A stretch of 39,253 nucleotides of DNA, from positions 1 to 39,253 of the forward strand of contig JAPLIE010000106.1 of the NCBI GenBank assembly GCA_026389265.1, in the 5' to 3' direction. The notes beneath the pieces are model-generated. The model was given only the letters and a program-made list of their open reading frames with translations. It ran no database searches and had not been told where the DNA came from. The stretch is from Cyanobacteriota bacterium (GTDB taxonomy: Bacteria > Cyanobacteriota > Cyanobacteriia > PCC-6307 > Cyanobiaceae). Shown here one piece after another: positions 5,983 to 20,087 of this stretch. Within the stretch, counting starts at the first letter, position 1. Each line of letters starts with the position of its first letter. The position numbers and the translations under genes were made by a program.

Positions 5983-6007
5983 TTCCCGGGCCGCCGGCCC
6001 CTGGGAA
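5983..6007. terminator. Hairpin between convergent cyAbrB and HpsJ-like genes
   Basis: TTCCC-GGGCC / GGCCC-(CT)-GGGAA forms a 10-bp stem with a 3-nt loop and a 2-nt bulge in the 40 bp between two convergent stop codons. There is no T-run on either side, so it may be a bidirectional transcript-end hairpin rather than a canonical intrinsic terminator. Confidence 0.4.
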
Positions 6008-6012
6008 CGACC

Positions 6013-6870
6013 TCAGTCTCTCTCCGGGTCCGCGGGCCCGGACTGGGTGCGACTGAGGTTGTCGAAGTAGTCGATTTCCGCCTGCATCTGGGGGCGCCGT
6101 TGACGGCGCCTGGCCCGCCCCTCGCCTCTGCTCAGCCAGAGATCCTGCCATTCATCGAGCAGCGACACCGACTGACCGGGGCGGAAGGCGAGAGCGGCAA
6201 AGCCGATCGATTCAGCCAGGCAGGCCACGCTATTGCGAAGCAGGTCGGGGAGGAAACCGAGCCTGCCAGGGGTCGGAGCGGCCATGGTCTCGCGGGCAAT
6301 CTGGGTTTCCCCCTGATCGAGGGCAGCGCCCACCTGGCTTCTGAGCAGGGCGAGAGGTTGATCCAGATCGGCCGGACTGAGCACCGGACCGCGCAGTTTC
6401 TGAAGTTGGCTGTTGAGCTCACCATTGTTGGGGGCAAGGGCAATGGCCCGGCGCAGGGCGGCCAGTTTGCGCTCGGCCTGCTCGATGCGGGCGGTCTGGG
6501 CGTTGCTGCTGAGTTGGGATTGGCGCAGGCCGGCCGCGGTCTGAAGGGGCACCAGCAGCAGCAGACCCAGCACGGCACCCACGGCCAGCCTGGCGGAGAT
6601 CTGGCGGCGTCGCTGCCGCACCGGATCTTCGGGGTCGAGTTCGGCGGCGAGGTGGAGGAGGGCCAGGGCGGCCAGGGGGATGGGGGCCGCATTGATCAAC
6701 GCCAGACTCACCCGCAACTGCCAGAGCGGCGAGGCGATGGCCAGGGGGAAGACATTGCCCAGCACGATGGTGCCGAACAGCACAAAGAGCACCAGGCAGA
6801 CCACGCTGAGATTGCGGCAGGCCAGCAGCAGCGGGAGTGGGCCCTGGCGAGGGTCGGGGAGGGGAACCAT
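6013..6870 (-). CDS. HpsJ-like membrane protein, copy 1
   Basis: This 285-residue membrane protein resembles the cyanobacterial HpsJ family (hormogonium polysaccharide secretion J and the exosortase-associated HpsJ-like proteins). Hydrophobic segments are at about residues 17-40 (VVCLVLFVLFGTIVLG), 50-75 and 93-112 (AVGAVLGLLLLVPLQTAAGL). A helical region near 120-200 with heptad-like spacing follows (TARIEQAERKLAALRRAI), then another hydrophobic stretch near 225-245. I start it at ATG 6870 rather than the longer 6921 start because the N-terminus then aligns with the second copy at 26329-27159 (both have LSVVxLVLFVLFG at the same distance from Met). It lies 78 bp downstream of a PEP-CTERM gene on the same strand, so it is probably the distal gene of a two-gene operon. 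A surface-protein sorting or exopolysaccharide role is inferred from family and neighbour. Confidence 0.78.
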   Translation of the reverse strand: MVPLPDPRQGPLPLLLACRNLSVVCLVLFVLFGTIVLGNVFPLAIASPLWQLRVSLALINAAPIPLAALALLHLAAELDPEDPVRQRRRQISARLAVGAVLGLLLLVPLQTAAGLRQSQLSSNAQTARIEQAERKLAALRRAIALAPNNGELNSQLQKLRGPVLSPADLDQPLALLRSQVGAALDQGETQIARETMAAPTPGRLGFLPDLLRNSVACLAESIGFAALAFRPGQSVSLLDEWQDLWLSRGEGRARRRQRRPQMQAEIDYFDNLSRTQSGPADPERD

Positions 6871-12096: not shown

Positions 12097-12472
12097 CGCT
12101 GCAGGCTAGGCGGGCGGGGCGGCTGGCCGGTTCGCGGTGGCCCTTCGGGCCGCGATAGCCGCCGCCGCAGGAAAGCTCAGCCCCCAGCTGTTGATCTCAG
12201 GATCGGCTTCCACAGCCGCGGGACGAGGGCCGCGGGATCGCTGAGCTGCAGTGTTTCTACCCGCTGCACCCTGGCTCTGGCGGTGGTCGGCGGCCTTGAG
12301 CTGGACGTGATGCTGGGAGGTTCTGGCATGGGGCGTGGGAACGGCCATGGCGCGGCCAGGCAGCGGTGCGGGCTTCTGCCTCCGGTGGTCTGCCCACAGG
12401 CCGGCACCCGTAACGATCACTGTGCCTTTCGCTCCTGCTACGACCGGCGGCAGCGATCCGTTCCCGTAGCCC
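12097..12472. other. 376-bp intergenic region, no gene recognised
   Basis: The region lies between the divergent nuclease and phosphohexomutase genes. I see a short GGCCC-TTC-GGGCC hairpin at 12139-12151 without a T-tract, and no recognisable RNA or convincing promoter. Open frames crossing it are compositional. It presumably contains both promoters. Confidence 0.5.
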
Positions 12473-15807: not shown

Positions 15808-18045
15808 GTGGTGAGCGAACGCCAGCCGCCCAGCCAGCTCCGTAGTTGCGACGCCGTGCTTGCCCCTGCCCCCACCGGTTCGCCCGAAACGCGCGCCCGC
15901 CAGCTGCTGGCCTCCCTCACCCCGGCCGAGAAGCTCGCGCACCTGTGTGGTGCCACCCCCTTCTGGGCCGGCATGGTCGACATCGCCGTTGCCGATGCCT
16001 CCCACCGCCATCCCTGGCCGGCCGGGGTGCTGCCCAGCCACGGCCTGGAGGGGCTGCAGTTCGTGGATGGTCCGCGCGGGGTGGTGCTGGAGGGGGGCGC
16101 CACCACCTTTCCGGTGCCGATCGCCCGAGGAGCCAGCTGGGACATCGACCTGGAGGAGCGGATCGGCGAGGCGATCGCCCGGGAGGCCCGTTCGTTTGGT
16201 GCCAACTGGGTGGCGGCGGTGTGCGTGAACCTGCTGCGCCACCCCGGCTGGGGTCGGGCCCAGGAAACCTACGGAGAGGATCCCGTGCTGCTCGGGGCCA
16301 TGGGCGCGGCCTGCAGCCGCGGCCTGCAGCGCAACACCATCGCCTGCATCAAGCATTTCGCTCTTAATTCAATCGATAGTTCCCGCTTTCTGGTGGATAT
16401 CCAGGTGAGCCGCAGGGTGCTCCATGAGCTCTACCTGCCCCACTTCCGCGACTGTGTGGCCGCCGGAGCCGGCTCGGTGATGACCGCCTACAACAGCGTG
16501 AATGGCGACTGGTGTGCTCAGAACCAGGAGCTGCTCACCACCATCCTCAAAAACCGCTGGGGCTTCGGCGGCTTTGTGGTGAGCGATTTCATCTTTGGGT
16601 TGCGCGATGGCCTGGCTGCTCTGCAGGCCGGGCTCGATCTGGAGATGCCCTTCCCGATGATCTTCGAGGGCTGCCTGCCTGAAGCCCTGGCGGCGGGCAC
16701 CCTGCCGATCGAGCGCCTCGATGATGCCGTGCTGCGTCTGCTGCGGGCCCAGTTGGCGGTGCCCTCCGGCGATTACCCGGCCGCCCTGCGGGGCTGCGCC
16801 GCCCACCGCAGCCTGGCCCGCGAGGCGGCCACCAAGGCGATCGTGTTGCTCAAAAATGCCGAAGCGATGCTGCCGCTGCCGGATCGGGGTTCGCTGGCGG
16901 TGATCGGTGCCCTGGCCGCTGGAGCGAATCTCGGCGATCGGGGCTCCTCCGACACCCGCCCGGAGCCGGGGGTGGTGGTCACCCCCCTTGCGGGGATTCG
17001 CGCCGCTGCCCCCCAGCTCCAGCTGCGCTACAGCGAGGGCCACGATCCGGCTGCCGCGGCCCGGTTGGCGGCAGCCTGCGATGCCGCCGTGGTGGTGGTG
17101 GGCCTCGACTGGCGCCAGGAGGGGGAGCACATCCACCCCGGCGACCTGGCGCCGATCCTGCGGGAGATGCCCGCTCCTGACCCCCTGCAGCGCTGGTTTG
17201 GCAGCCAGCGGCTGCGGCCCTTCTGGCGGCCGGTGGCCGAGACGGTGGCCTCGATCACCCGCTTGGCTTCGGCGCGCACCGGCGGCGACTTCGCCGCCGG
17301 TGATCGCACTGAGTTGTCCTTAGACCCGGCCCAGGAGGCCCTGATCCTGGCGGTGGCCGCCGCCAACCCCCGCACCGTGGTGGTGCTGATGGGCGGTGGC
17401 GCGATCCTCACTGAGCGCTGGCGGCACCGGGTGAACGCCATCCTGCTGCTCTGGTACCCCGGCCAGCAGGGTGGGGAGGCCCTGGCCGATGTGCTGCTGG
17501 GGAGGGTGTCGCCCTCGGGCCGGATGCCCTTTGCGGTGCCCACCAGCGCCGAGCACCTGCCGGTGTTCGAGCCCCGGGCCGAGTCGGTGGTCTACGACCT
17601 CTGGCACGGCTACCGGCGGCTGCAGCGCCAGGGCCAGGCCGCCGCCTTCCCCTTCGGCTTCGGCCTCTCCTACAGCACCTTTGTCCATGGGGAGCTCCAG
17701 GCCGAGCTTCTCCCCCAAGTGGGGATCCTGCGGGTTTTGCTCACGGTCACCAACAGCGGGCCGATGGCGGCTGCGGAGGTGGTGCAGGTGTACCTGGAGC
17801 CGCCGGGGCGGGAGGTGGAGCGGCCGGTGCGCACCTTGGTGGGGTTCGGGCGGCTTCCGCTGGAGCCTGGCCAGGCCCAACGGCTGGAGCTGGCGATTCC
17901 GCTGCAACGTCTGGCCTATTTCGATGCGGGCGCCGATGCCTTCCGGCTGGAGGCAGGCCCGCACCGGCTGGTGGTGGCCCGCCATGCCGAAGATCCGGGC
18001 CTGGGGGTGGAGGTGGAGGTTGGGGCGATGGTGCTGGGCCCTTGA
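15808..18045 (+). CDS. Glycoside hydrolase family 3 beta-glycosidase
   Basis: This 745-residue GH3 enzyme cleaves terminal beta-linked sugars (beta-glucosidase/xylosidase type). The N-terminal TIM barrel carries GLQFVDGPRGV (residues ~73-83), the substrate-binding KHF with preceding NTIACI near 180, and the nucleophile Asp260 in FVVSDF. The alpha/beta sandwich domain (about 345-600) includes KAIVLLKNAEAMLPLP and LLWYPGQQGGEALADVLLG, and the last ~110 residues form the fibronectin III-like domain (VVQVYLEPPGREVERPVRTL). No signal peptide is seen, so it is likely cytosolic. GTG at 15808 is followed by another GTG. Its substrate is unknown. Confidence 0.9.
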   Translation: MVSERQPPSQLRSCDAVLAPAPTGSPETRARQLLASLTPAEKLAHLCGATPFWAGMVDIAVADASHRHPWPAGVLPSHGLEGLQFVDGPRGVVLEGGATTFPVPIARGASWDIDLEERIGEAIAREARSFGANWVAAVCVNLLRHPGWGRAQETYGEDPVLLGAMGAACSRGLQRNTIACIKHFALNSIDSSRFLVDIQVSRRVLHELYLPHFRDCVAAGAGSVMTAYNSVNGDWCAQNQELLTTILKNRWGFGGFVVSDFIFGLRDGLAALQAGLDLEMPFPMIFEGCLPEALAAGTLPIERLDDAVLRLLRAQLAVPSGDYPAALRGCAAHRSLAREAATKAIVLLKNAEAMLPLPDRGSLAVIGALAAGANLGDRGSSDTRPEPGVVVTPLAGIRAAAPQLQLRYSEGHDPAAAARLAAACDAAVVVVGLDWRQEGEHIHPGDLAPILREMPAPDPLQRWFGSQRLRPFWRPVAETVASITRLASARTGGDFAAGDRTELSLDPAQEALILAVAAANPRTVVVLMGGGAILTERWRHRVNAILLLWYPGQQGGEALADVLLGRVSPSGRMPFAVPTSAEHLPVFEPRAESVVYDLWHGYRRLQRQGQAAAFPFGFGLSYSTFVHGELQAELLPQVGILRVLLTVTNSGPMAAAEVVQVYLEPPGREVERPVRTLVGFGRLPLEPGQAQRLELAIPLQRLAYFDAGADAFRLEAGPHRLVVARHAEDPGLGVEVEVGAMVLGP

Positions 18046-18104: not shown

Positions 18105-18635
18105 TCAGCCGGGGGCCCCGGTGCTGGGCCCTGCAAGGGGCTGGCGGTGGCGGGCTGCAGGCTGCTCCTCCCCCAGGATCTTGCGCAGGCGTAGGCGGTT
18201 GTAGCGCTGCACCCACAGGCAGGGCAGGTTGAACAGCGTGGCGAACACCAGGTTGATCAGCACCCCCTGGGGCGGCAGCCACAGGGCCGTGAGCAGCCAG
18301 AACGGCCACAGGGCCAGATGCACCAGCTCGGCCCGGCGGGTTTCGATCAGCAGTTGTTCCAGGCAGGCCCGATCCCGGCGAGCCAGGGCGGCCTTAGCCA
18401 TGCCGCCGGGCAGAAAGCTGCCGGCATCGGGCAGCCACGGCTTCCAGCGGCGGATTCCCAGGCCCCGTTCGTAGGCCTGGATCCGCTCCCCCCAGGGGCG
18501 CGGGCGGGTGAGCCACGAATCCTTGGCCAGCATGGCCAGAGGCAGCCGATTGGCCAGGCCGCCCACCAGCAGGCTCCAGCCAAGCCAGCCCAGGGCACTG
18601 GTCAGGGGGGGCGAGAGCAGGGGGAGGGCACTCAT
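18105..18635 (-). CDS. CrtO-type (staphyloxanthin) acyltransferase homologue
   Basis: This 176-residue membrane protein is related to staphylococcal glycosyl-4,4'-diaponeurosporenoate acyltransferase (CrtO), which esterifies the carotenoid's sugar with a fatty acid. Shared segments are LLIETRRAELVHL near residue 105 and, after a hydrophobic hairpin, NLPCLWVQRYNRLRLRKIL near 145. These correspond to IETKRAELIHW and VQRYNRPRL in the S. aureus protein. Hydrophobic segments are at ~10-30 and 112-145. ATG 18635 overlaps the stop of the glycosyltransferase gene (ATGA), so the genes are translationally coupled. It is unrelated to the beta-carotene ketolase that shares the symbol. The acyl acceptor in this organism is unknown. 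Confidence 0.82.
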   Translation of the reverse strand: MSALPLLSPPLTSALGWLGWSLLVGGLANRLPLAMLAKDSWLTRPRPWGERIQAYERGLGIRRWKPWLPDAGSFLPGGMAKAALARRDRACLEQLLIETRRAELVHLALWPFWLLTALWLPPQGVLINLVFATLFNLPCLWVQRYNRLRLRKILGEEQPAARHRQPLAGPSTGAPG

Positions 18636-19507
18636 GGCCTGGTCGACAACGTGCGCCCCTTCCACCGCACCGTGCCCCGCTCCAGGTTGGCGATGGCCAG
18701 CACAAACACCCCGAGGAAAAACAACACCGGCACCGGAAAGATCAGGTTGATCCAGCCGAAGCTGCCCACCCGCCGGGTGATCACGAGCAATTGCGCCGCA
18801 AAGCAGCCATACAACAGCAGGTTGGCCGCCAGGCCGCGGTCCCCCAGCATCGGCCAGTCCAGCAACGAGGCCGGCAGGCACCAGGCTGCCCAGAACAGGC
18901 CCGACAGCCAGAGCAGCACCGCCACCAGGCGCCACTTGCGCACCTCGCCGCGGGGGCCAAGCGGCACCGCCATCATCCCCACCAGGTTGAACAGCACGGA
19001 AAGCTGCTCGTAGGCCCGTTCGGTGCGGTGGTAGGGCTGCACCGAAACCAGCCCGCCCAGCTCCTGATGGCAGGCCAAAAGGGAGGCCAGAAAATCCGGG
19101 GCGGGTTCGGTATCGGCATCGAGAAACACCAGCACCTCGGCCCTGCTGGCGGCCACGCCGTTGTGCAAGGCCCAGGTCTTGCCGCACCAGCCCTCGGGCA
19201 AGGGTGGCGGCCTTACCAGGCGCACCTCCAGGTGGGGACTGGTCTGGGTGGCGATCGCGGCGGTGCGGTCGCTGGAGTGGTCGTCGATCACGATCACCTC
19301 AAGGGGCCGAAAGCTCTGAGCCTCCAGGGCGCGCAGCAGGTGGGGCAGGGTGCTTTCCTCATTGCGGGCCGGAATCAACACCGCCACCGAGGGGTGGCCC
19401 CGCACCACCCCCGCCGCCAAGGCTGGCATCCGCAGACAGAGCAGCCAGCCCAGCCCCCAGCGCACAAGCAGGGAAAGGTTCAGGAGGCCCAGAGTTACCA
19501 AGCCCAT
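18632..19507 (-). CDS. CrtQ-type GT2 glycosyltransferase with internal deletion
   Basis: This 291-residue membrane-associated GT2 protein is related to staphylococcal 4,4'-diaponeurosporenoate glucosyltransferase (CrtQ, ~375 aa). Present are an N-terminal helix, VAVLIPARNEE (41-51), VIVIDDHSSDRT (71-82), the DxD motif FLDADTEP (129-136), GGLVSVQPYH (151-160), and the C-terminal membrane part (RRVGSFGWINLIFP; VRWKGRTLS). Between VLFNLVGMMA (~180) and VLLWLSGLF (~197) the family normally has about 100 residues that include the acceptor-side catalytic helix and the RMYxxG...GWxKN motif; here only ~16 residues remain. The frame is intact, so this looks like an in-frame deletion and the protein may be catalytically dead. 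It starts 4 bp after the lipase stop and overlaps the acyltransferase start. Confidence 0.8.
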   Translation of the reverse strand: MGLVTLGLLNLSLLVRWGLGWLLCLRMPALAAGVVRGHPSVAVLIPARNEESTLPHLLRALEAQSFRPLEVIVIDDHSSDRTAAIATQTSPHLEVRLVRPPPLPEGWCGKTWALHNGVAASRAEVLVFLDADTEPAPDFLASLLACHQELGGLVSVQPYHRTERAYEQLSVLFNLVGMMAVPLGPRGEVRKWRLVAVLLWLSGLFWAAWCLPASLLDWPMLGDRGLAANLLLYGCFAAQLLVITRRVGSFGWINLIFPVPVLFFLGVFVLAIANLERGTVRWKGRTLSTRP

Positions 19508-19511
19508 GGCC

Positions 19512-20087
19512 TCAGGGCCGCATCAACTCCGCGGCCAGCGGTTCGAGCGAAAGGCGATCGCGCAGCACCTGGGGATGGGCCCAGACCGGCAGCATCCGTT
19601 GCTCCCCCACCGGCAGCACGGCGCGCCTGCCGGGAACCACCACCAGATCGAGGTCGGAATAAAAACTGCAGCACTCGACCGCCTCCAGGCTGGAGAGGTC
19701 GCCATTGAGTTGTTGCAAAAGGGCACTGCCCTGTTTGAGATCGGCGATGCCGGCCAGCAGCCGGCTTGGCCAGGGGTTGGCGGTGAGGGTGCCTTGGTGC
19801 GGACTGGCGACACTGGTGAACCGCCTTGTGCGCCGGTGCCCCCCCCGCAGCTGAATCCAAGTGCGGGCGATCACCCCACCCATCGAAAAGCCGCAGAGGT
19901 CGATCGTTTGGTCGGCGCCGAAGGCGGCTTCGATCTGCTCGCCCAACAGGGCGGCGGACTCGGCGATCGGCGTGATCCCGCAGCGCAGGGGAAGGTCGGG
20001 CACCAGCAGGCGGCGTTGCGGCTGGCCCAGGAGCTGCCGCAGCCGGTTGAACACCCGCGAGCTGTCGAGCATGCCGTGCACCAGCAC
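19512..20087 (-). CDS. Alpha/beta hydrolase, lipase/esterase-like
   Basis: This 191-residue alpha/beta hydrolase begins at the HG-loop (LVHGMLDS, oxyanion hole). It has the nucleophile elbow GFSMGG near residue 65-70, an Asp in FYSDLDLVV near 143, and a terminal AHPQVL histidine near 169, so the catalytic triad is probably complete. The only start-like codon is GTG 20087; no ATG lies upstream before an in-frame stop, so the N-terminus is short compared with usual lipases. Relatives include triacylglycerol lipases and acyltransferase-like esterases. It is the first gene of an apparent three-gene operon with the CrtQ-type and CrtO-type genes, which suggests lipid or carotenoid-ester chemistry (inference). 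Confidence 0.78.
   Translation of the reverse strand: MLVHGMLDSSRVFNRLRQLLGQPQRRLLVPDLPLRCGITPIAESAALLGEQIEAAFGADQTIDLCGFSMGGVIARTWIQLRGGHRRTRRFTSVASPHQGTLTANPWPSRLLAGIADLKQGSALLQQLNGDLSSLEAVECCSFYSDLDLVVVPGRRAVLPVGEQRMLPVWAHPQVLRDRLSLEPLAAELMRP

Follow-up and report, generated by a model that had tools for sequence, protein, structure and literature searches.

The CrtQ/CrtO pair of staphyloxanthin synthesis and the HpnB-like membrane branch (TIGR03469) of the GT2 glycosyltransferases (PF00535) are the described systems with which a shortened gene in one freshwater cyanobacterium genome can be compared. We analysed 39,253 nt of this genome (contig JAPLIE010000106.1, positions 1 to 39,253; hereafter the window), in which an open frame of 291 codons running from 19507 to 18632 on the minus strand encodes a GT2 (CrtQ/HpnB-like) membrane glycosyltransferase of 291 aa, here called crtQ, that lacks 79 codons present in its relatives. 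It is followed by an intact CrtO-family acyltransferase gene (18105..18635, minus strand; PF18927, 91.9 bits against a cutoff of 27.3), the ATG of which overlaps the crtQ stop (ATGA) provided that crtO starts at 18635. An alpha/beta hydrolase gene (19512..20087, minus strand; PF02089, PF00561 and PF12697, each barely over its cutoff) adjoins crtQ directly upstream on the same strand, and the order hydrolase, crtQ, crtO on the minus strand is succeeded by a convergent glycoside hydrolase family 3 (GH3) gene adjoining crtO (15808..18045, plus strand).

What the staphyloxanthin genes and this locus have in common is the pairing itself, a GT2 gene placed directly before an acyltransferase gene of the PF18927 family; the pathway there is a carotenoid pathway, a role that would be hypothetical for the cyanobacterial pair. 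The label CrtQ-type is owed to the neighbouring CrtO-family gene rather than to a match with any CrtQ model. Membership of GT2 was supported by the PF00535 gathering score in the N-terminal half of the short protein (81.9 bits, cutoff 23.3; residues 43-160, profile positions 2-117 of 168). The best NCBIfam match was HpnB (TIGR03469), at 92 bits against a curated cutoff of 379 (102 bits for the full-length relative), and CruG (NF045692) scored 75.5 bits against a curated cutoff of 600 (81.2 for the full-length relative), so that neither score places the protein in the family concerned. The short gene thus resembles the HpnB-like branch in its N-terminal half and differs from it in a score far under the cutoff and in the deletion of the C-terminal catalytic part. 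Titles and abstract openings yielded no literature on a GT2/CrtO pair in Synechococcus or Cyanobium, and no literature on hpnB with Cyanobium was found.

The nearest relative, Cyanobium sp. LBMAG_Cyanobacteria_epi.bin3 (BJHE01000084.1, L009/L038), has a full-length gene encoding 370 aa. When crtQ was aligned with it, DNA identity was 93% in one block and 92% in the other, and between the two lay 237 nt (79 codons) that only the relative has and that cover approximately residues 188-266 of its protein. The breakpoints that fit best lie at CDS positions 561-567, with 563 excepted, equivalent to window positions 18947-18941, and the junction (18941..18950) reads CGGCGAGGTG on the minus strand. 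An in-frame deletion of about 85-100 residues in a CrtQ-type gene at 18900-18990, with frame intact and flanks well conserved, had been proposed in the initial annotation; the deletion, its place, the open frame and the conserved flanks all proved real, and the size was revised to 79 residues by alignment. Because the protein remains 94% identical to that of the relative on either side of the junction, a misread frame or a chance match is excluded. The orthologue in LBMAG_Cyanobacteria_epi.bin3 shares the hydrolase, CrtO and GH3 neighbours with the window gene and has the 79 residues that the window gene is without. A second copy elsewhere in the window genome was considered and rejected, as a genome search found no close copy of the lost segment and three weak matches, the best of which (34% identity, E 3.8e-5) lies in an open frame of 440 aa. 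We consider it probable that 237 bp were lost recently and in frame from a full-length GT2 gene in this lineage, leaving a dead enzyme.

The lost segment carried VAFGPA, VVEDWF, YRMYPGG and GF.KNFATAA, in agreement with the earlier observation that the acceptor-binding and catalytic-base segment and the RMYxxG...GWxKN motif were missing. In 19 full-length sequences, 43 of the 79 lost positions, the VVED site included, are invariant, and among the 72 full-length relatives described below the exact words VVEDWF, YRMYPGG and KNFATAA occur in 70, 72 and 68, respectively. In a report on a GT2 synthase (PMC10374906), the aspartate of a TED motif is given as the predicted catalytic base, and we infer that VVED is the corresponding ED/TED catalytic-base site of GT2; no such motif was found in the short protein, VVED having gone with the segment. 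Without the ED catalytic-base site and the elements on the acceptor side, the product would be unable to transfer sugar, and the gene may be regarded as a putative early pseudogene. In the full-length relative as modelled by AlphaFold2 (mean pLDDT 72.9, pTM 0.73), the lost stretch comprises three strands (194-198, 232-237 and 241-243) and four helices (199-204, 207-211, 217-227 and 250-265), the VVED helix being among the latter, while the model of the short protein (mean pLDDT 63.8, pTM 0.52) falls below a pLDDT of 50 at residues 157-202 around the junction, both models being of modest confidence. GT2 structures were matched by both models in Foldseek, which is expected for the short model because the donor half is kept. 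The retained donor-side DADTEP motif would be in keeping with a minimal glycosyltransferase that is still active and uses another residue as base, but given the loss of 43 invariant positions and of seven secondary-structure elements (three strands, four helices) seen in the full-length model, and with no natural short homologue found in the loci and genomes searched, among the matches listed, such an enzyme is scarcely credible.

To place the short form among its relatives, homologues were aligned, as had been suggested at the outset. A scan of GTDB-220, limited to the best 80 of 205 candidates encoding a relative, yielded 77 distinct loci, 72 of them with full-length frames, and all 72 keep all 79 positions; 69 of these frames are 360-377 residues long and three, through start choice, 406-444. 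The remaining five loci comprise two cut by contig ends (L089 and L114), one whose start was misplaced in the frame call and which spans the deleted region by blast (L094), and L110 and L113. L110 (REEV01, PLM2.Bin73) is a second crtQ copy that stops after 147 residues, in one bin with an intact crtQ homologue (L058; 371 aa frame). L113 (VGPU01000003.1) was considered as a second short form and rejected, since it keeps the segment lost in the window gene; at 6001-6832 it carries a crtQ without the C-terminal membrane part, with a junction, GGTGCGCTGG, that resembles repeats in full-length genes. Both crtQ and crtO are frameshifted in L113, and sequence error is possible in this draft because its GH3 gene, too, is spread over three frames.

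Two further searches were directed at the junction itself. Among 42 genus genomes, 39 of which gave a match, ungapped alignment across the junction was obtained for the window's gene only. A 61-residue junction peptide matched 91 of 400 family genomes, these being a sample of a larger group, and was covered whole by the window genome only, among the matches listed; the listed matches of other genomes ran from residue 1 or 2 to 31-36 or started at 30-33, with no E-value better than 8.6e-17 outside the window genome as against 1.0e-38 within it. The occurrence of the short form in several lineages, which would mark a short subfamily, was not found across the 77 loci, the 42 genus genomes and the matches listed for the 400 family genomes. 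The possibility raised in the initial annotation that close relatives share the short form is therefore rejected within the searched loci and genomes, the window genome standing alone among the matches listed. As relatives have the gene at full length, the short version is in all likelihood a commonplace loss-of-function deletion of recent date or, failing that, an assembly error. An isolated in-frame loss of this kind, or an assembly fault, accounts for it best, and it should not be treated as a new class of protein.

Selection on the short gene was assessed against its neighbours. The dN/dS of crtQ between the window and the nearest relative was 0.17, inside the range of 0.14-0.27 spanned by the neighbours in the same genome pair (GH3 0.20, hydrolase 0.14, crtO 0.27), and polarised changes in crtQ numbered 12 synonymous and 8 non-synonymous on the window branch and 12 and 6 on the sister branch. 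At the low power of these tests, which is too little to separate recent decay from constraint, neither relaxed selection (dN/dS and polarised counts) nor special constraint (dN/dS) was detected on short crtQ. The rates carry no clear trace of the deletion, which is therefore recent or false unless the test lacks power; the selection data fit a very recent deletion and also an artefact. A repurposed short protein, in which the membrane anchors and the nucleotide-binding half would now serve a different, non-catalytic function, such as that of a CrtO partner or scaffold, would accord with the intact frame, the conserved flanks, the dN/dS of 0.17 and the intact crtO; shared history before the deletion can, however, account for the constraint, the short form is found in one genome only among the matches listed, and model confidence falls around the junction, all of which makes this reading improbable. 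We think it very unlikely that the short protein has been kept as a pseudoenzyme partner, anchoring or coupling with CrtO after its catalytic core was lost in one lineage. Between the two fates offered in the initial annotation, dead enzyme or repurposed protein, sequence comparison thus favours the former, with a presumed loss of activity, and the latter received no positive support, the short form being present in no other genome among the matches listed and special constraint being undetectable.

We examined the breakpoints for a short repeat in full-length relatives that might explain the deletion, and the answer was a weak yes: in the nearest relative the breakpoint repeat is imperfect, with 7 of 10 bases matching, a level reached by 1.9% of in-frame position pairs of the relative's gene. 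The test was made on the relative's gene only, as use of the window junction as a stand-in for the lost copy is circular. The short gene could instead be an artefact, arising from a false junction in a draft assembly, from chimerism of a read or because a variant of a minority strain was taken as the consensus. The window genome is a draft of 214 contigs, 95.4% complete and 3.0% contaminated, relaxed selection was not seen in crtQ, and substitutions at the junction are somewhat above background (by hand count, 4 differences in 21 nt, TGG to AAG included, versus approximately 7%) and could be misjoined sequence. Against this, the breakpoint repeat is imperfect and of only about 10 bases, whereas the usual assembly k-mers are much longer, the reading frame is preserved and the flanks match the relative without a break.

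An indel control bears on the same point. From the window genome 41 stretches, the window among them (509,440 bases in all), were compared with 60 stretches of the relative (1,192,628 bases), and pieces at least 150 bases long and at least 85% identical provided 92,661 aligned bases. Of 22 gaps of at least 30 nt, 9 had more than 15 bases of unaligned sequence on both sides and were set aside. The other 13 were clean, the window genome having the shorter version in 7 and the relative in 6, although some of these 13 could be artefacts too. Multiples of three accounted for 6 of the 13, and the crtQ deletion is the only such multiple among the 7 in which the window genome is the shorter. With 13 clean indels of at least 30 nt in 92,661 bases, such differences are common in this genome pair, which also argues against an artefact; we regard an artefact as possible but, on balance, doubtful. 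At window positions 12212-12323, 111 nt (a multiple of three) are present that are missing from the nearest relative.

The preferred reading is a genuine deletion, for which illegitimate recombination or replication slippage between the short imperfect repeats at the breakpoints would be the likely route. That deletions at short homologies contribute to variation among strains is known (PMC2884548), variable segments being attributed there to slippage between repeats, mostly of less than 30 bp. The mechanism proposed for crtQ is of this kind; the crtQ case differs from those segments in that its repeat is short and imperfect, a single event is concerned and the mechanism is deduced.

The ancestral state would have been a full-length membrane GT2 gene paired with a CrtO-type acyltransferase gene, from which 237 bp would have been lost in frame, recently and in this lineage. 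Because the crtO start overlaps the crtQ stop, an in-frame loss in crtQ leaves crtO translatable, and the remnant probably still lets the overlapping gene be translated. Among the 72 full-length relatives, the overlap at the crtQ stop is ATGA in 14, TGATG in 22 and neither in 36. In the set of 42 genus genomes, CrtO was found in 35 and the lost CrtQ segment in 32; 32 genomes have both, 7 have neither and 3 have CrtO without the segment, and the two genes are thus normally kept or lost together in the genus. The three comprise the window genome, one genome whose contig ends inside crtQ (G052), and one with a frameshifted crtO remnant and no crtQ on that contig (G007). Within this set, the window genome alone combines an intact crtO with a neighbouring crtQ frame that is open despite its deletion. 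One of the seven genomes with neither gene (G040) retains the remains of a crtQ with a frameshift, together with a weak match resembling CrtO (31% identity, E 5.8e-4). As the seven are between 73 and 99% complete, some absences may be gaps. The GT2/CrtO pair is absent or decayed in some other members of the genus, and its pathway step therefore seems dispensable.

By itself the short gene is of little significance, being a single loss-of-function allele, or an artefact of assembly, in a gene pair that is dispensed with in some relatives, and it cautions against annotating such a gene as a working CrtQ-like enzyme. A more interesting lead than the deletion is the recurrent hydrolase-GT2-CrtO cluster of picocyanobacteria, the product of which is perhaps an acylated glycoside. 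In full-length relatives with enough flanking sequence, homologues of the neighbours were located no more than 3 kb from crtQ as follows: hydrolase, 50 of 70; crtO, 58 of 68; GH3, 38 of 65.
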